Shown: in pieces, positions 3,051 to 17,581 of the stretch
How positions within the stretch are numbered: position 1 is the stretch's first letter
How the letters are laid out: each line of letters begins with the position of its first letter
Assembly: GCA_026786065.1 (NCBI GenBank)
Contig: JAJAYS010000059.1
Span: 1-21,455, forward strand
DNA: 21,455 nt
Origin: Polaromonas sp.
GTDB lineage: Bacteria; Pseudomonadota; Gammaproteobacteria; Burkholderiales; Burkholderiaceae_C
Direction: 5' to 3'
The notes under the pieces: generated by a model
What the model was told of the DNA's origin: nothing
The model's database searches: none
Seen by the model: the letters and a program-made list of their open reading frames with translations, nothing else
Translations under genes and position numbers: made by a program

Positions 3051-3126
3051 CCGGGCAAATTAATCCGGCCCGATTCAGCCGGCCAAATTAATCCGGCCCA
3101 ATTCCGCCGGCCAAATTTACCCGCCC
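3051..3126. repeat. 28-bp tandem repeat, about 2.7 copies
   Basis: Copy 1 occupies 3051-3078, copy 2 3079-3106, and a shorter third copy starts at 3107. Each copy begins ccggccaaattaatccgg or a close variant (copy 1 has ccgggc, copy 3 is compressed to ccggccaaatttacccgccc). The unit is itself roughly palindromic around an AT-rich centre. The third copy contains the stop codon of the RIO kinase gene, so the array forms the 3' end and trailer of that gene. It may be a protein-binding array or simply slippage-derived. Confidence 0.8.
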
Positions 3127-3971
3127 ATCCGCACCCGCCGGGCCACCTCTTCAGCCCGCGCGTCGTCGATCTCGCGGATCACGCTGCCTACGTTGACCGG
3201 CCCCGTCTGGCGGGCAAAGCGGCCGGTAAGCGGCGAGTCGGGGCTGAGCAGGCCGCTCTCATACAGCGACCAGATCTCGGGGCCGAAATCGCTGTGCAGC
3301 AGCGCCGGCGCGAACTGGCCGAAGAACTTGCGCAGGTTGTCCACGTCACGCAGCAGCATGCGTTTGGCGTGGTTGTTACCGGCCGCGTCGATAGCTTGCG
3401 GCAGGTCGATGATGACCGGGCCATCGACGCCGTCCTCGCTGGCCACCAGGATGTTGAACTCGGACAAATCGCCGTGCACCACGCCGGCACACAGCATGCG
3501 CACCACCTCGCGGATCAGCGCAGCATGGTGGCGCAGCGCATCGGACGCTGTGAACTGCACGTCGTTCAGGCGCGGCGCGGCGTCGCCGTTCGCGTCGGTG
3601 ACCAGCTCCATCAGCAGCACGCCGTCGCAGAAGTTGTACGGTTTGGGCACGCGCACACCGGCCGCGGCCAGCCGGTACAGCGCATCGACCTCGGCGCTCT
3701 GCCAGGCCGCCTCCTGGGATTCGCGGCCGAACATCGTGCCTTTGGCCATGGCCCGCGCCTGCCGGCTGTTTTTTACCTTGCGGTTCTCGGTGTAATCGAC
3801 CGCCTGGCGAAAGCTGCGCTCGCTCGCCTCTTTGTACACCTTGGCACAACGGGTTTCGTCGCCGCAGCGCACGACGTACACCATCGCTTCCTTGCCGCTC
3901 ATAAGTTGGCGCACCACGCTGTCGATCAGGCCTTCTTCGATCAGCGGCTGCAGGCGTTTGGGTGTTTTCAT
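3117..3971 (-). CDS. RIO-family serine protein kinase
   Basis: Cytosolic atypical protein kinase of 284 aa. RIO signatures are visible: a short P-loop SGKEA (25-29) followed by VYVV, the catalytic lysine in CAKVYK (K44), the catalytic loop VHGDLSEFN (H166-N173, D168 catalytic), and the metal-binding aspartate in IIDLPQAID (D189). The start at 3971 was chosen because MKTPKRLQPLIEEGLID is a typical beginning for bacterial RIO proteins. The frame extends to 4175, but the extra part is poorly kinase-like and lies over the divergent I9 gene. Substrates are unknown; in bacteria the family is sometimes tied to envelope or phosphate stress. The stop lies in a tandem repeat. Divergently oriented from the protease cassette, about 170 bp away. 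Confidence 0.9.
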   Translation of the reverse strand: MKTPKRLQPLIEEGLIDSVVRQLMSGKEAMVYVVRCGDETRCAKVYKEASERSFRQAVDYTENRKVKNSRQARAMAKGTMFGRESQEAAWQSAEVDALYRLAAAGVRVPKPYNFCDGVLLMELVTDANGDAAPRLNDVQFTASDALRHHAALIREVVRMLCAGVVHGDLSEFNILVASEDGVDGPVIIDLPQAIDAAGNNHAKRMLLRDVDNLRKFFGQFAPALLHSDFGPEIWSLYESGLLSPDSPLTGRFARQTGPVNVGSVIREIDDARAEEVARRVRMGG

Positions 3972-4140
3972 GCCTGCATTTTGCCTTGCAGGCCACGACA
4001 AAAATTCAGGCGTGCGGCCAGGCAGACCGCAGGGCAGTCGCACGCTACGATGAATGCGCCCGCAACCCGTCCAGATGCGCTCGGCCAGACAATCTGAAGC
4101 ACAGTCGGCCCCACAGCCTGCAAAAATCGGAACGCGCTCC

Positions 4141-4596
4141 ATGCCTTTTTCTTTGAACAGTCCCCAACCCGACAATCGCTGCCTGCAATCTTGCCCCCAG
4201 CCCGGTGGCAGGCGGATCGCCAGCTTTGCGCTGCTGACCGGCGCATGGCTGATTCAGGCCTGTGGTCAAACTGCGACCAGCCCGGTCGCCCCCTCAGCCA
4301 ACCTCCCTGCCACGGGAGTCAGCGGGCACAACCAGCCTGTGAGCCCGAGTGGCGCGGTGCTGCGCGTGATCGTCCGCTTTCGCAGCGCGGCGCCCGGCGA
4401 CGATGCGGCGACGCTGGCCGGGCTGTCGCGGCAGGCCCAGGCGCCGGTCCGCTATTTGGCCAGCGTGTCGCCGGACACGCATGTGTACCGGATCGAGTCC
4501 GGGCCGGGTCAGCAGGCCGACACGCTCAGGACGCGGCTGCTCGCCCTGCCGGGTATTACCAGCGTTGAGATCGACAGTACGGCGCGGCCGCTGTGA
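4141..4596 (+). CDS. Stand-alone I9-like (subtilase propeptide/inhibitor) lipoprotein
   Basis: Protein of 151 aa. The start at 4141 places a hydrophobic stretch SFALLTGAWLIQAC before a cysteine, so a lipoprotein signal is likely, although Gln at -2 of the lipobox is unusual. The mature part parallels the propeptide of the neighbouring subtilase: VIVRFRSAA against LIVRFRTPA, SVSPDTHVYRI against SVSPQTHVALL, and SVEIDSTARPL against YVEIDELVRPL. There is no catalytic domain behind it, so it is a free-standing inhibitor_I9-type domain. Such domains can fold or inhibit their cognate protease. The gap to the protease gene is 156 bp on the same strand. An alternative start at 4054 would remove the signal from the N-terminus. 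Inhibitor or immunity function is inference. Confidence 0.78.
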   Translation: MPFSLNSPQPDNRCLQSCPQPGGRRIASFALLTGAWLIQACGQTATSPVAPSANLPATGVSGHNQPVSPSGAVLRVIVRFRSAAPGDDAATLAGLSRQAQAPVRYLASVSPDTHVYRIESGPGQQADTLRTRLLALPGITSVEIDSTARPL

Positions 4597-4752
4597 AGTT
4601 GTGGCAAGGCCGGCGGTGCCCTGTGCGTCCTGAAGGGCGAAACAGCGCCGCGACCGCCGGGGACGTGGGCCAGCATCAATAATCTGCCTCTCGCCAGCCC
4701 GCAAGCCATCCCGCACGCCGCCCGGCAAGCACTCCCCTCTGTAAGCACCCGC

Positions 4753-6945
4753 ATGAATCCCTCGCCGATGCGACCCCTAAACCGGTTTTTCTGCAGCGCC
4801 GTCGCGCTGGTGCTGGGCAGCGCCAGCCTGCTGGCGCCGGCCCAACCGGCCGACCCGAGCCCGCCCGTAGCGCCGACGCCGGCCAAACCCGGCCAGGCTT
4901 CGACGCAAGCCAGCGCTGCGACCGACCCGTCCAGCCACAACCGGCTGATCGTCCGGTTCCGCACGCCCGCCACCACGCTGGCGGGCGTCTTCGACCACCG
5001 CGCCGCCGAGGACCGGGTCGCGGCGCTGGGCGCCAGCCATCGCAGCCGCGTTCCGTCGGCGGCCGGCTTGCGGCGGCTCAAATCGGTGTCGCCCCAAACC
5101 CATGTGGCCTTGCTCGACCGGCCGCACAGCCGGGCAGAGCTGCGCAGCGTGGCGCTGCAACTGGCCCAGGATCCGTCGGTGGACTACGTCGAGATCGATG
5201 AGCTGGTCCGCCCGCTGTTCACTCCGCTGGACCCCGGCTACACGCTGAACCAGTGGCACCTGAAGGCTGCGTCAAGCAGCGATGTCGGCGCGGCCAATCT
5301 GCCTGCCGCATGGGACGTCGCGACCGGCAGCGACGTCGTGGTTGCGGTGATCGACACCGGCTATCGGCCGCATGCCGACCTCAATGCCAACGTGTTGCCC
5401 GGCTACGATTTCGTCACCTCAGCCGTCGGCAACACCAATGGCGGCGGCCTGGGCGGCAACGGTCTGGACCCCGGCGACTGGGAATCGGCCGGTCAGTGCA
5501 GCCCCGGCTCGGCAGCGACCAGCAGCAGCTGGCACGGCACCCACATCGCCGGCACGATTGCCGCGCTGAACAACACCAGCGGCAGCGTCGGCGCTGCCTT
5601 CTCGGCCAGAATCTTGCCGGTGCGGGCACTTGGTACCTGCGGCGGATTCGGCTCGGACATTGCCGCCGCGATGCGCTGGTCGGCCGGGCTCGCCGTGCCC
5701 AATGTGCCGGTCAATGCCAACCCGGCCAAGGTCTTGAACCTGAGCCTGGGCGGCCCCGGCCCCTGCACCCAGGTCTATCAGGACGCGGTCGATGCGGTGC
5801 GTGCCGCCGGTGCAGCCGTGGTGGCGGCTACCGGCAACGACGCCACCAGCCTGATTGGCCGGCCAGCGAACTGCGCTGGCGTGATTGCGGTGACGGCCCA
5901 CACCCGCCTCGGCGACAACGCGAATTACGCCGATATCGGGGTCGGCACTACCTTGAGCGGGCCTGGTGGCGGCAGCGGTTTCATGGTGGCCGGCGCTGGT
6001 GAAAAAATCTATTCGACGATGAACCTCGGCGCGCGGGCTCCGGGTGCCGACGGCTATTCATTGCTGACCGGCACCAGCATGGCGGCGCCGCACGTGGCCG
6101 CAGTGCTGGCGCTGCTCAAGAGCTTCAGGCCGGGCTTGACGCCCGACCAGCTGGCCTCGGTCGTCAGCAACTCGGCGCGGCCGTTCCCGCCAGGCACTTA
6201 CTGCGTTGGCCGTAGCGACTGCGGCGCCGGGATGCTGGACGCCACCCGTGCGCTGGCCAGCGTCAACGCCGGCGAACCCTTTGCGACCGCCAGCGTCGGC
6301 CCCGGCCCGGCCAACGCGAACCGACTGGTCGGCTCGACCGTCGTGCTCACGGGTCAGGCCAGCTCGCCGCTGGCAAGCCAGCCGGCATTCACCTACCGGT
6401 GGACGCAGCTCTCCGGCGCGCCGGTAACGCTTAGCGGCAGCACCAGCGCCGTCGCCTCCCTGGTCGCACCGGCCATAGCCGGCAGCTTCTTCTTCGAGTT
6501 CAGGGCGACCGAAACCGGCTCCGGGAAATTCGCCACCAGCCGCGTCAGCGTGGCCACCAACACCGCGCCGGAGCTCGCGGCCATAAGCGCGCAAAGCGTG
6601 CCCGAAGGCCAGACCCTGAACTTCACCCTGAGCGCCAGCGACGCCGAGCGCGACCCGGTGGCTTTTCTGGCCGAGGGTCTGCCACCCGGGGCGACCTTCG
6701 ACGCCAGCACCGGCGAATTCAACTGGTCGCCCGCCGGGCCGGCGGGCAGCTATGCCTTGACGGTGACGCCGACCGACGGCAAGAACAGCGGCGCCGCGCA
6801 GCGCATCGCGATCAGCGTCGGCCCGCCCGCCTCGGGCGGCGGTGGGGCGACCGGCTGGTGGGACGGGCTCGGCCTGCTGGGACTAGCGTGGGTCGCGCTG
6901 GCTGCGCGCCGGCGCGGCCCGCGGGGCCGGCGGGGCCAGGGCTAG
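4753..6945 (+). CDS. S8 subtilase with I9 propeptide, Ig-like domain and GlyGly-CTERM
   Basis: Exported serine protease of 730 aa. Order: signal peptide (about 1-31), Pro/Ala linker, I9 propeptide (about 63-156), peptidase S8 domain (about 170-505), a beta-rich region and a putative-Ig/cadherin-like domain (about 604-690, NTAPELAAISAQSVPEGQ), then SGGGG (694-698), a hydrophobic helix GLGLLGLAWVALAA, and an Arg-rich end RRRGPRGRR. Catalytic residues are D201 in AVIDTGY, H261 in WHGTHIAG and S442 in GTSMAAPH, with oxyanion N362 in ATGND. The Asp-His insertion rich in Gly and DPGDW is like secreted proteobacterial subtilases. The Gly-run, helix and Arg tail are the GlyGly-CTERM sorting signal processed by rhombosortases, and one is encoded next door. 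Start at 4753 or at the Met six codons in. Confidence 0.93.
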   Translation: MNPSPMRPLNRFFCSAVALVLGSASLLAPAQPADPSPPVAPTPAKPGQASTQASAATDPSSHNRLIVRFRTPATTLAGVFDHRAAEDRVAALGASHRSRVPSAAGLRRLKSVSPQTHVALLDRPHSRAELRSVALQLAQDPSVDYVEIDELVRPLFTPLDPGYTLNQWHLKAASSSDVGAANLPAAWDVATGSDVVVAVIDTGYRPHADLNANVLPGYDFVTSAVGNTNGGGLGGNGLDPGDWESAGQCSPGSAATSSSWHGTHIAGTIAALNNTSGSVGAAFSARILPVRALGTCGGFGSDIAAAMRWSAGLAVPNVPVNANPAKVLNLSLGGPGPCTQVYQDAVDAVRAAGAAVVAATGNDATSLIGRPANCAGVIAVTAHTRLGDNANYADIGVGTTLSGPGGGSGFMVAGAGEKIYSTMNLGARAPGADGYSLLTGTSMAAPHVAAVLALLKSFRPGLTPDQLASVVSNSARPFPPGTYCVGRSDCGAGMLDATRALASVNAGEPFATASVGPGPANANRLVGSTVVLTGQASSPLASQPAFTYRWTQLSGAPVTLSGSTSAVASLVAPAIAGSFFFEFRATETGSGKFATSRVSVATNTAPELAAISAQSVPEGQTLNFTLSASDAERDPVAFLAEGLPPGATFDASTGEFNWSPAGPAGSYALTVTPTDGKNSGAAQRIAISVGPPASGGGGATGWWDGLGLLGLAWVALAARRRGPRGRRGQG

Positions 6946-7563
6946 GGCTAGCACCGCCGCAAGCAACCCACCGACGGCGCCCGCCCAGTGGGCCGGCCGG
7001 TACACCGGAATTTGCAGCCACGCGCTGAAGCCGCCCGCGGCGTCGCTGCCCTGCCAGAGCAGTTTGGCCGACAGGGCCAGCAACACGCCTAAAGCGACGC
7101 TGCGGGACCAAAGCTGGCTGCTTTCAGCCGCAGCCGGTGGCGGGGTCAAGTCTGGCGCCCGGCTGGCTGCGCAGAGCAGCAGAACGGCGTTGCCGGCCCA
7201 CAGGCCGTGCAGCGCACCCGAAAGGCCGGCGTAGAAGCTGCAGTCGCGGTCGAACAGCAAAATTAGTGCCACACCCAGCGCGCCACCGGCCAGCGCCAAA
7301 CCCTGCGCTGGCAGCACCAGCCAGACCCGCCAGGCCAGCAGCGATACCACCAGCGCGAGCGCGTTGAGCGCCGCATGGGCCAGACTCAAATGCACGGTTT
7401 GCCCGCTCAGCAGCAGCCACCACTGGCCAGCCGCAAAGGCCGGTCGCGAAAAGCGCAGCGCCTGGGCCGCGTCCGGCAGCCACTGCAGCGCCAGCAGCAA
7501 CACGGCCCCCGCCAGCACCAGCGCGACGTACCTGGCCTTTAGCGGCGGCAGCGCGGGCGTCAC
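6883..7563 (-). CDS. rrtA: Rhombosortase (rhomboid-type GlyGly-CTERM protease)
   Basis: Polytopic inner-membrane protein of 226 aa. It has about six helices and the rhomboid landmarks HLSLAHAALN (H58, H63, N67), YAGLSGALHG with the nucleophile S115 in GLSG, and AHWAGAVGG with the partner H192. It is short for a general rhomboid but right for rhombosortase, and it lies beside a GlyGly-CTERM protein, the hallmark pairing of this family. It should cleave the subtilase tail near the Gly run in the membrane so that the protease can be released or lipid-modified. The start is GTG at 7563 (CAATGTG); an ATG two bases upstream runs straight into a stop. The last 63 nt overlap, antisense, the end of the subtilase gene. 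The name rrtA is by family and context. Confidence 0.88.
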   Translation of the reverse strand: MTPALPPLKARYVALVLAGAVLLLALQWLPDAAQALRFSRPAFAAGQWWLLLSGQTVHLSLAHAALNALALVVSLLAWRVWLVLPAQGLALAGGALGVALILLFDRDCSFYAGLSGALHGLWAGNAVLLLCAASRAPDLTPPPAAAESSQLWSRSVALGVLLALSAKLLWQGSDAAGGFSAWLQIPVYRPAHWAGAVGGLLAAVLALALAPPAPRAAPARSQRDPR

Positions 7564-7595
7564 ATTGGAGCCTTGACCCGATGCCCGGCCGGCTC

Positions 7596-7756
7596 AGAGC
7601 CTGAGAGTTTTTCGGGCGTGACCGAGCAGCGCGTCAAAGGGCACCCGATCTAGGCGCAAAGCACAGCCATAGCCTGGGCTATGGTGCGCATTTGCAACCA
7701 CGAGCGGGGGCTCTTTGGCGTGATGAGCGGGCATGAACGAAAGACTCTCAGGCTCT
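7596..7756. repeat. 161-bp imperfect palindromic element, copy 2
   Basis: The outer arms agagcctgagagtttttcg (7596-7614) and its complement at 7738-7756 match at 18 of 19 positions. Pairing continues inward (caaagggcacccg against its partner around 7708-7724; gcgcaaagcacagccatag against ctatggtgcgcatttgc) to the core ccatagc-ctgg-gctatgg centred at 7675. It fills most of the gap between the rhombosortase start and the SDR gene, and its right end touches the SDR stop codon. Length and core architecture equal those of copy 1 at 918-1078, while the arm sequences differ. Possible roles are mRNA 3'-end protection or attenuation between SDR and rhombosortase. Confidence 0.78.
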
Positions 7757-15471: not shown

Positions 15472-16239
15472 TCAAACCAGCGGCGCAAAAACCCGCAGCC
15501 ATTTGCGGGCCGGCAGGTCCCAGCGCGACTCGATGACGCCAGCTTGCAGCAGCAACGTGTCGCGTGTCGGCCGGCTTGGCTCGCGCTGCGCCAGCACCAC
15601 CGCATTGCCTTCGCGCGTCGGCCGGAAGGCCCAGAGCGCCTGCGGGCCGAAGGCCTCGGCGATTTTTTTCAGCGACTGCGCATAGCTGGTGTTGCGGCCG
15701 AACAGGTTGACCGTCATCACCCCGTCTTCGGCGAGCAGGGCGTGGCAGTCGGCGTAGAACGCCGCGCTGTCGAGCACCGGGCCGGCCGCTTCCTGGTCGT
15801 ACAGATCGACGTGCAGCAGATCGATGCGGCCACGGTGCTGCGGATTGCAGATCTCCAGCGCGGCGTCGGCCGCGATCACCTGCAGCCGTGCGTCGTCACG
15901 CGGTAGCTTGAACCAGCCCCGGCAGGCGGCGATCACCTGGGTGTTGATCTCGACCGCGGTGGGCGTCATGCGCAGCTTCTTGTGGCAAAACTTGGTGAGC
16001 GCGCCCGAGCCGAGCCCAAGCTGCATCGCGCGCTTTTTCGGCACGCTGGCGGCGTTGGTGAACAGCAGCCCGGCCATCATGCGCTGTACGTATTCGAGCT
16101 CGATTGCAAACGGTGCATCAATCAGCATCGAGCCTTGCACCCATTCGGTGCCCAGGTGCAGGTAACGCACGCCACCGGCATCGGAGAAGTTCACCTCCGG
16201 CAGCTCGCCAGCCGCTGCAGAAACGTTTCGCATTGCCAT
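15472..16239 (-). CDS. Spermidine-synthase-like SAM-fold protein
   Basis: Protein of 255 aa with the class I Rossmann fold of spermidine synthases and methyltransferases: SAM/dcSAM-binding loop QLGLGSGALTKF near residue 73, acidic end of strand two in AVEIN, and the aspartates in IDLLHVDLYD near residue 140. It is somewhat shorter than SpeE and I do not see the full aminopropyltransferase active-site set, so the product could be a methyltransferase or a non-catalytic relative rather than a polyamine synthase. Its ATG overlaps the stop of the upstream DNA glycosylase gene by one base (TGATG), implying coupling. A second Met lies two codons in. Confidence 0.8.
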   Translation of the reverse strand: MAMRNVSAAAGELPEVNFSDAGGVRYLHLGTEWVQGSMLIDAPFAIELEYVQRMMAGLLFTNAASVPKKRAMQLGLGSGALTKFCHKKLRMTPTAVEINTQVIAACRGWFKLPRDDARLQVIAADAALEICNPQHRGRIDLLHVDLYDQEAAGPVLDSAAFYADCHALLAEDGVMTVNLFGRNTSYAQSLKKIAEAFGPQALWAFRPTREGNAVVLAQREPSRPTRDTLLLQAGVIESRWDLPARKWLRVFAPLV

Positions 16240-16736
16240 CAGACCAACCCATGTGTTTTAAATACCGTGCGCCAGGCGGCAAGTTTGCGCTCAAAGCTCC
16301 AGGACGCATGCGCCGGGCTGCTTGACGGCAAGCGGTGCACCGGCAGCCCGAACGCACCGGTCAGGCGCGCATGTTTAAAGCTCTCGCCGCCGTTGTGGGC
16401 GATGGCTTGCAAGCCCGGGCAGCCGGCCACCAGACCGGCCAGGTCGCTGGGAACGGCCTGGCGGATATCTGCATCCAGACTGCCGTCACGCTCGCAGGCG
16501 GCGTACACGTCCCACAAGCCCAGGCCGCGAGCAAGCAGGTTGTCGCTACGAATTTCATAGCTGTTTACGCCCGAATTCATTGGGCTATCAGGCCATATAG
16601 CTTGCAAAATCGGCCAGAACTGGTTGCGCGGGTGGGCGTAATACTGTTGCGCGGCGAGCGACGCAGCGCCCGGAAAGCTGCCCAGGATCAGCAAGCGGGT
16701 GCCGCTTGACGCCAGCGGCGCCAGCCCGATCAGCAT
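16239..16736 (-). CDS. DNA-deoxyinosine (hypoxanthine) glycosylase, UDG superfamily
   Basis: Base-excision repair enzyme of 165 aa that would remove hypoxanthine from deaminated adenine in DNA. Motifs match the hypoxanthine-DNA glycosylase branch of the uracil-DNA glycosylase superfamily: LLILGSFPGAAS (15-26), YYAHPRNQFWPIL (32-44), GLGLWDVYAACER (71-83), AHNGGESF (113-120), and LPSSSPAHAS (136-145) as the second active-site loop. The start at 16736 overlaps the tatD stop by 7 nt. Residues about 45-64 (QAIWPDSPMNSGVNSYEIRS) are encoded by an AT-rich dispersed repeat and replace the segment where relatives have ordinary helix sequence, yet frame and flanking motifs are intact. Confidence 0.85.
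   Translation of the reverse strand: MLIGLAPLASSGTRLLILGSFPGAASLAAQQYYAHPRNQFWPILQAIWPDSPMNSGVNSYEIRSDNLLARGLGLWDVYAACERDGSLDADIRQAVPSDLAGLVAGCPGLQAIAHNGGESFKHARLTGAFGLPVHRLPSSSPAHASWSFERKLAAWRTVFKTHGLV
16547..16606. repeat. AT-rich dispersed repeat, copy B, inside a coding region
   Basis: It reads atagctgtttacgcccg (from 16557) and then gggctatcaggccatatagc, matching the core, spacing and right end of copy A at 9498-9555. It is clearly AT-richer than the surrounding gene. It lies fully inside the DNA glycosylase frame on the other strand and adds no stop or frameshift there. It resembles the Comamonadaceae short repeat mentioned for copy A (from memory). Confidence 0.6.
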
Positions 16737-17581
16737 GCGAGCAGGCCGGCCAGTTTGGGCAAGGCGTCCCGCGCATTGGCCCCGGTGGCGGCCGCCAAGG
16801 CTTCGACCGACATGCCGCGCAACTCCGCCACCTGCGCGGCGATCTGCGGCAACTGGGCCGGCTCGTTGCGCCCTTGCGGTTGGCCGGCTGCGCGCTCGGC
16901 CGCCGTCCGGTAAATCCATTGGGGCGGTATGTCGGGCGAGTCGGTCTCCAGCACCAGCGCGTCGAGCGGCAGGCTGGCGGCCAGCCTGCGCAGCTGGCGC
17001 GCAGCCTCGTAGGTCACCGCCCCGCCAAAGCCGAGCTTGAACCCGAGCGCGATGAACTGCCCGGCCTGCTGCGCGCTGCCGTTAAAGGCATGGGCAATGC
17101 CGCGCCAGCGGCCTTCGGCCGGCAGCAGCTCGCGCAGCGCTTTGAGCAGCCGGTCGGACGAGCGCCGCACATGCAGGATCACCGGAAGGTCGTGCTGCCG
17201 CGCCAGCCGCAGTTGCGCCCGGTAAAAGTGTTCCTGGCGGGCGCGCAGCACGGGGGTTTGGAGTTCTGGCACAAAAAAATCCAGGCCGATCTCGCCGACC
17301 GCGACCAGCCGGGGATCTTCCCGGCGCAGTGCGAGTTCGGCATCGAGCTTTTCGAGGTCGCCCGCTTCCGCACTGGCAACCCGCAGTGGATGAATGCCCA
17401 GTGCATAGCTGTAAGAAAACGCCGACGCCAAGTCGCGCACCGCCGCAAAGTTGCCGACATCGGTGGCCGGCAGCACGCAGTGCCTGATGCCGGCTGCCGC
17501 TGCACGCAGCGCGACCGACGGGCGGTCCGGTGCGAACTCCTCTGCGTCGAGGTGGCAATGGGTGTCGATCCAGGTTGGCAT
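16730..17581 (-). CDS. TatD-family metal-dependent hydrolase/DNase
   Basis: Cytosolic TIM-barrel metallohydrolase of 283 aa. All metal ligands of the family are visible: DTHCHLD (HxH) at the N-terminus, GEIGLDF with the bridging Glu, LPVILHVR, GIAHAFNGS, and LETDSPDI with the final Asp. TatD proteins are 3'-5' DNases linked to repair of oxidative or alkylation damage, though related proteins deacylate D-amino-acyl tRNA or other substrates. The start at 17581 (MPTWIDTHCHLD) is the usual family start; an ATG at 17614 and a TTG at 17644 are also in frame, and none has a good Shine-Dalgarno. First gene of a minus-strand run with the glycosylase (7-nt overlap). Confidence 0.9.
   Translation of the reverse strand: MPTWIDTHCHLDAEEFAPDRPSVALRAAAAGIRHCVLPATDVGNFAAVRDLASAFSYSYALGIHPLRVASAEAGDLEKLDAELALRREDPRLVAVGEIGLDFFVPELQTPVLRARQEHFYRAQLRLARQHDLPVILHVRRSSDRLLKALRELLPAEGRWRGIAHAFNGSAQQAGQFIALGFKLGFGGAVTYEAARQLRRLAASLPLDALVLETDSPDIPPQWIYRTAAERAAGQPQGRNEPAQLPQIAAQVAELRGMSVEALAAATGANARDALPKLAGLLAC

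Follow-up and report, generated by a model that had tools for sequence, protein, structure and literature searches.

A lipoprotein-like, free-standing subtilase propeptide encoded beside S8 proteases in Burkholderiales, and its possible role as a tethered guard

Positions 4141–7563 of a 21,455-nucleotide stretch of Polaromonas sp. DNA (contig JAJAYS010000059.1; the whole stretch is hereafter called the window) are filled by three genes, encoding a lipoprotein-like protein of 151 amino acids (aa), an S8 (subtilisin-like) protease of 730 aa and a rhomboid protease of 226 aa. The lipoprotein-like protein, here termed lipo-I9, consists in its last 80 residues of a copy of a subtilase propeptide, and across the order Burkholderiales its gene follows the protease and not the sorting enzyme, which, beside a lipo-I9/protease unit, can be a rhombosortase, MrtJ or none. 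We suggest, at somewhat better than an even chance, that lipo-I9 could act as a lipid-tethered propeptide in trans, which would block the protease in the periplasm and stay behind when the protease is exported. Searches of an open-access library found no description of the lipo-I9 family. The survey covered 87 Polaromonas genomes and 399 genomes order-wide, a 61-genome sample being used as well; the assembly that holds the window (G000) has 2.93 Mb and is 83.6% complete.

The lipo-I9 protein and its propeptide domain

The lipo-I9 gene runs on the + strand from an ATG at 4141 to a stop at 4596 (4141..4596), with an earlier in-frame ATG at 4054. Its N-terminus is signal-like and leads to a predicted lipidated Cys41 (4261..4263, +) in the lipobox IQAC, which is non-canonical at −2 and is followed by Gly. 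The propeptide domain occupies residues 72–151 (4354..4593, +), with the predicted order strand-helix-strand-strand-helix-strand and a pLDDT mostly >90 to about residue 140. Against the propeptide of the neighbouring protease, lipo-I9 gave a BLASTP match of E=5e-8 with 34% identity over 121 columns and the same last residue. The original prediction of a lipoprotein-like copy of the protease's propeptide is borne out. The C-terminal Leu151 (4591..4593, +) aligns with Leu155 of the protease, which is predicted to be P1 at the end of its own propeptide, and Glu143-x-Asp145 (4567..4575, +) matches the Glu/Asp pair that caps catalytic-domain helices in subtilisin-propeptide complexes, Glu69/Asp71 in the BPN' propeptide (PMC6993865; this and the other papers are cited from excerpts).

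Conservation among relatives is concentrated on these features. In an alignment (A3) of 37 full-length rows, selected out of 59 protein hits plus 13 locus copies, the mean column identity is 35%, while the lipobox Cys is present in 37/37 rows and conservation in the core is highest at F80 (36/37), E143 (36/37) and D145 (35/37). A loose lipobox pattern fits 42 of the 59 protein hits, and the remaining 17 are proteins of 86–101 aa that start after the box. The Glu is kept in 20 and the Asp in all 22 of the lipo-I9 locus copies, compared with 19/27 and 25/27 in the propeptides of S8 proteases. Furthermore, 23 of the 37 rows, including all seven intact Polaromonas locus copies, end six residues after the Asp, which is the P1 place. 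Beside these features, several lipoproteins (P0086, P0089–P0093, L069) carry twin-arginine-like N-termini (SRRRLL, ARRRLL, PRRRLL) before the lipobox, and this RRRLL-type subgroup may, judging from the motif, use the Tat route.

No Pfam or NCBIfam model matched lipo-I9 at E<=1, and one relative, P0086, has a precomputed PF22148 annotation. The best match of the lipo-I9 profile among solved structures was the BPN' propeptide (1spb_P; E=0.0078, weak alone); of the 19 chains at E<=10, 12 were subtilase propeptides, or proteases in which the match lies where the propeptide ends, and seven matched the signal part only. The predicted fold has the propeptide order of elements, but this ferredoxin-like fold is so common that unrelated chains rank first in the comparison, and thus it is not diagnostic.

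Linkage to proteases rather than to one sorting system

The protease was found in eight of the 87 Polaromonas genomes, and all eight carry all three genes, with one set degraded. In six of them (G000, G007, G015, G018, G027, G028) lipo-I9 lies directly upstream of the protease and the rhombosortase-type gene is convergent downstream, while G436 carries an intact set and G454 a set in broken frames; the protease was not found in the other 31 Polaromonas genomes of the 61-genome sample. Weak lipo-I9 matches (E 7.7e-4 or worse, mostly with internal stops) in the protease-less G020, G031 and G036 were not counted. A peptide-pattern scan of named genomes gave seven stretches and five confirmed loci, all from Polaromonas and all among the loci already counted.

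Across the order the three genes part company. The rhombosortase model TIGR03902 matched 51 places in 47 of the 399 genomes at E<=1e-10, and at 33 of them, window included, the neighbourhood was inspected. An S8 gene with a Gly-rich/hydrophobic/basic tail lies within 200 bp at ten of the 33, and lipo-I9 is present at three of the ten (window, G350, G094). An eleventh pair, in G194, was taken as split, with the rhomboid at the end of one contig and lipo-I9 plus the S8 gene (GGGG tail) at the end of another; with G194 counted, lipo-I9 accompanies four of 11 protease-rhombosortase pairs and seven are without it. The original prediction had regarded the three genes as one sorting cassette: they do travel together in Polaromonas, but by the refuting condition set with that prediction, absence of the I9 gene from most genomes with the pair, these seven pairs speak against a cassette with three constitutive parts order-wide.

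Searching with the lipo-I9 profile alone gave 50 places in 43 of the 399 genomes. All 21 places in frames <400 aa were read, of which 16 were true free-standing copies in eight families and five were other proteins. Among 14 long-frame hits checked, 13 turned out to be propeptides that share one frame with the catalytic domain of an S8 protease, and these show the kind of sequence that the profile detects. Fourteen of the 16 free-standing copies have an S8 gene as a same-strand neighbour, and all 20 lipo-I9/S8 pairs measured lie on one strand. Four of the 14 pairs combine a GlyGly-type tail with a rhombosortase (G000, G094, G350, G194), three have a JDVT-CTERM-type tail (G052, G062, G190) and seven have neither system, six of these ending in a chitin-binding-like tail (named by eye) and one in none recognised. 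Ten of the 14 pairs are thus without an adjoining rhombosortase, which likewise counts against a cassette of three constitutive parts.

With the JDVT-CTERM model, G062 scored above the cut-off in both scans and G052 in the genome scan only, and G190 fell below it. MrtJ adjoins the pair in G052 (112 bits, cut-off 75) and, by similarity to the G052 MrtJ, in G190; it was not seen beside the G062 pair. In G052 (L069, G052:C6) and G062 (L122, G062:C29) the lipo-I9/S8 pair lies between gspF and gspG, both above cut-offs, and at L069 mrtJ is also inside the gspF–gspG interval. Among 38 JDVT places, five S8 proteases were recognised (E<=1e-12 to the window catalytic domain) and three of them have lipo-I9. 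In three genomes here, two of them with MrtJ adjacent, the lipo-I9/S8 unit thus occurs with JDVT-CTERM/MrtJ as another sorting system. The excerpted description of that system is of a two-gene enzyme/target neighbourhood whose enzyme is a glutamic-type intramembrane protease unrelated to rhombosortase (PMC11980579). This distribution suggests that rhombosortase and MrtJ sorting can each be combined with one and the same protease unit.

In G213 (L229) and G244 (L230), lipo-I9 has no S8 neighbour; the genes on either side of it are those that enclose the lipo-I9/S8 pair in the sister genome G274 (L227). A tblastn search at the G213/G244 site found no protease remnant, and loss of the protease or its later gain in G274 both fit. 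As for the export machinery, GspD is above cut-off in six of the eight Polaromonas genomes with the set, partial in G454, and above cut-off in 57 of the 87 genomes of the genus.

The pairing of a protease with an additional propeptide is also seen in fused form, as read from the sequences: two tandem propeptide-like domains precede the S8 catalytic domain in L209 (G338), L212 (G256), L214 (G432), L215 (G249), L217 (G353) and L219 (G142). The match of the first domain is weak in three of these six (i-E 0.6–6), and its Glu-x-Asp is mostly lost.

A tethered guard and its alternatives

Subtilases remove their own propeptide once folded, so that a folded subtilase waiting in the periplasm could be dangerous. 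In the mechanism that we favour, the S8 precursor would be exported by Sec and fold on its own propeptide, its GlyGly-type tail would hold it in the inner membrane where the neighbouring rhombosortase would cut, and the type II secretion system would carry it to the cell surface; type II use in the window genome is likewise presumed. The small gene would meanwhile yield the second propeptide copy as a lipoprotein, whose lipid anchor is proposed to keep it on the periplasmic side. There lipo-I9 would bind the folded, autoprocessed protease, with its Glu-x-Asp capping catalytic-domain helices and its C-terminus plugging the active-site cleft in the manner of a reaction product. This second propeptide, unable to leave since it is lipid-bound, would close the gap before export and protect the periplasm as a guard, and export would part the two and turn the protease on.

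Several observations are in keeping with such a guard, namely the adjoining S8 gene at 14 of the 16 free copies found by the lipo-I9 profile alone, the single strand shared by all 20 pairs measured, the invariant Cys and the near-invariant Glu and Asp at a mean column identity of 35%, the BPN' propeptide as best match among solved structures, the P1 end of the seven intact Polaromonas copies, the retained propeptides of the S8 partners, the lipo-I9 genes of G213 and G244 that have no protease, the two pairs inside a type II operon and the fused tandem forms. Other observations weigh against it. Binding and inhibition are predictions from sequence; 13 of the 37 aligned copies extend 2–12 residues beyond the P1-equivalent place and one copy is a residue short, so that the product-like end is not universal. 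The extra domain of the tandem forms is untethered and has mostly lost its Glu-x-Asp, and so it may have another role; seven of the 11 protease-rhombosortase pairs do without lipo-I9; and GspD was not found above cut-off in the window genome, at 83.6% completeness. In Vibrio cholerae, the cargo VesB, a serine protease of a different kind, seems to retain its propeptide and to be inactive until export (PMC6219818), which implies that a guard is not always needed. Finally, propeptides both fold and inhibit, which makes a foldase role hard to exclude by sequence.

That foldase role is the most serious alternative, although we consider it unlikely. It holds that lipo-I9 is a trans-acting steric chaperone, a tethered propeptide that would catalyse folding of the protease in the periplasm with inhibition as a side effect, in the manner of the membrane-anchored lipase foldases or CpaB. 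Membrane-anchored chaperones encoded beside type II cargo genes are established (PMC4713064), and ORF2 of Aeromonas sobria, separately coded, is needed for subtilase maturation and inhibits via its C-terminal region (PMC5638518). Against a foldase, the S8 partners retain their own propeptide, so that a second one should be unneeded for folding, lipo-I9 is missing beside seven of the 11 protease-rhombosortase pairs, and two genomes have lipo-I9 with no protease at the site. The original prediction of a chaperone or immunity factor named the right pair of hypotheses, between which the evidence leans toward a tethered inhibitor.

Less probable still is a surface regulator, a surface-exposed lipoprotein that would sit on the surface-anchored protease and tune its activity. 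In E. coli, a residue other than Asp after the lipoprotein Cys predicts the outer membrane, and in the 22 lipo-I9 locus copies read this residue is never Asp; both partners would then be lipid-bound at the surface. Seven of the 14 partners, however, have no recognised sorting tail (six end in the chitin-binding-like module, by eye), so that co-localisation would be lost after export. A role for the lipoprotein in sorting itself, for example as an adaptor between the protease and the rhombosortase or the type II system, would accord with the three-gene linkage in all eight protease-bearing Polaromonas genomes and with the two genomes in which the gene lies between gspF and gspG, but it appears highly improbable given that lipo-I9 also stands beside proteases without a recognised sorting tail and together with the unrelated sorting enzyme MrtJ.

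The history of the free copies was read from a tree that holds 22 of them together with 27 propeptides and none of the tandem forms, and that has long branches and weak deep support. Free copies and propeptides sort apart on it: they need three label changes, against 16.4 in shuffles, and monophyly of the free copies was not rejected (p-AU 0.31). The seven Polaromonas propeptides form a clade (100/98) that excludes the Polaromonas free copies. This separation indicates that the free copy is old rather than a fresh duplicate, so that the reading of lipo-I9 as a recent propeptide duplicate without a function, which its resemblance to its neighbour's propeptide might suggest, is scarcely credible given also the conserved Cys, Glu and Asp.

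The closest known systems include the potempins of Tannerella, grouped with protease-inhibitor gene pairs, and A. sobria ORF2, which reportedly makes up for the absence of a propeptide and is no homologue of one. ORF2 resembles lipo-I9 as a separately coded neighbour of a Gram-negative subtilase with its C-terminal region at the active site; it inhibits the protease (IC50 84 nM) and is required for maturation, and the excerpt describes no lipid anchor (PMC5638518). The stand-alone MEROPS I9-type inhibitors (PoIA1, the yeast peptidase B inhibitor, Arabidopsis SPI-1), TgMIC5 and Plasmodium SUB1-ProM share a free-standing propeptide fold and the conserved capping Glu, and in Plasmodium the gene adjoins subtilase genes; they differ in being eukaryotic, none is described in the excerpt as lipid-anchored, and inhibition was shown there whereas it is predicted here (PMC6993865). 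Spi/SpeB and the Bacteroides Bfi/Bfp systems likewise have inhibitor genes beside the protease that are thought to protect the producer, Spi being a propeptide analogue and two Bfi proteins predicted lipoproteins, but their proteases are cysteine proteases and none of those described in the excerpt joins propeptide fold, lipid anchor and S8 protease (PMC2873492). Lipase foldases and CpaB are, like the proposed guard, dedicated membrane-tethered, periplasm-facing partners encoded beside a type II cargo gene, but they have an N-terminal transmembrane (TM) anchor and other folds and are needed for secretion, and Table 1 of PMC4713064 contains no S8 protease. What appears to be new here is lipo-I9 itself, a variant on both the stand-alone propeptide inhibitor and the membrane-tethered type II cargo partner.

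For much cargo, the question arises by what means a cell prevents harm from a broad-specificity protease that folds in the periplasm on its way to type II export. A tethered second propeptide, if true, would be a simple answer distinct from both foldases, which are anchored and needed for folding, and free inhibitors, and lipo-I9 would then be a marker gene for type II-exported, surface-sorted subtilases. More tentatively, and slightly short of an even chance, the lipo-I9 proteins may form an unnamed Burkholderiales family of lipid-tethered propeptides serving as export-coupled safety catches, in which only the protease would pass the type II channel, and which would have come to work with two unrelated C-terminal sorting systems and entered a type II operon, with the tandem-propeptide proteases of the order as their fused counterparts.

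The protease, the rhomboid and their surroundings

The protease precursor (4753..6945, +; PF00082, 152 bits) carries its own N-terminal propeptide at residues 61–155 (4933..5217, +), assigned by homology and folded in the predicted structure. A low-confidence linker at residues 156–164 separates it there from the catalytic domain (5218..6273, +), in which D201, H261 and S442 form the invariant triad and N362 is also invariant in a 20-row alignment. The deposited chains of the solved relatives 5yl7, 9grg, 9goi and 9i67 begin one residue before query residue 157, and thus the mature N-terminus is predicted at F156 with L155 as P1. Two Ig-like domains (PKD-like, He_PIG; 6331..6822, +), found by domain model matches, are followed by the sorting tail (6835..6942, +), with GGGG, a hydrophobic helix at residues 703–718 and a basic end, so that the C-terminus reads SGGGG-ATGWWDGLGLLGLAWVALAA-RRRGPRGRRGQG. 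Three-part tails are present in the six Polaromonas orthologues inspected, and the Gly-rich motif, TM helix and basic C-terminus together uphold the tail as of the GlyGly-CTERM type. The GlyGly-CTERM model TIGR03501 did not match the protease at E<=1, and a genome search at E<=10 gave a match only at another place and none at the tail. The protease is probably surface-bound.

The rhomboid gene (6883..7563, − strand) encodes the predicted catalytic Ser115 in GLSG and His192 in AHWAG, the motifs from which a rhombosortase form had been proposed. TIGR03902 is its one strong NCBIfam match (81.1 bits, E 8e-23, cut-off 84), with GlpG at 10.4 bits for comparison, and two orthologues scored 70.5 and 82.5 bits; since the score is just under the cut-off, we label the protein rhombosortase-type. 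Of the model checks proposed with the original prediction, the one on the rhomboid gave a match below cut-off and those on the tail and on lipo-I9 gave none. The Ser motif (GxSG) is present in all seven intact Polaromonas rhomboids, and the His motif was found by pattern in six and read as PAHCAGA in the seventh. The rhomboid probably sorts the neighbouring protease.

The protease-rhomboid part is of a known kind, the dedicated GlyGly-CTERM/rhombosortase pair, in which a sorting enzyme of the rhomboid family stands beside its single target, whose end combines a Gly-rich motif, a TM helix and a basic tail; the two were at most one gene apart in 16/21 single-target genomes (PMC3237569). It differs from those pairs in that the tail is missed by TIGR03501 and the rhomboid lies 2.9 bits under the TIGR03902 cut-off, and the excerpt mentions no lipoprotein. 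V. cholerae VesB has its GlyGly tail cut by rhombosortase and receives a glycerophosphoethanolamine-containing group at the end so formed; the type II system brings it to the cell surface, and there it becomes active (PMC6219818).

The protease and rhomboid genes are convergent and overlap tail to tail by 63 nt (6883..6945, no strand), so that the basic end of the sorting signal is encoded antisense to the rhomboid C-terminus, and the conservation of the arrangement in relatives indicates a locus layout beyond chance. The overlap is 54–96 nt in all seven intact Polaromonas copies measured (window, L063–L067, L126). Upstream of the rhomboid start, in the gap before the next gene, inverted repeats (CTCAGAGCCTGAG; CCATAGCCCAGGCTATGG) at window 7593–7684 score as terminator-like. 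Elsewhere in the window, a PA4780-family RIO1-like kinase (3117–3971; NF041645, 467 bits) is divergent from the lipoprotein gene, and positions 16239–16919 match a DNA-deoxyinosine glycosylase model (TIGR04274, 138 bits; cut-off 80).

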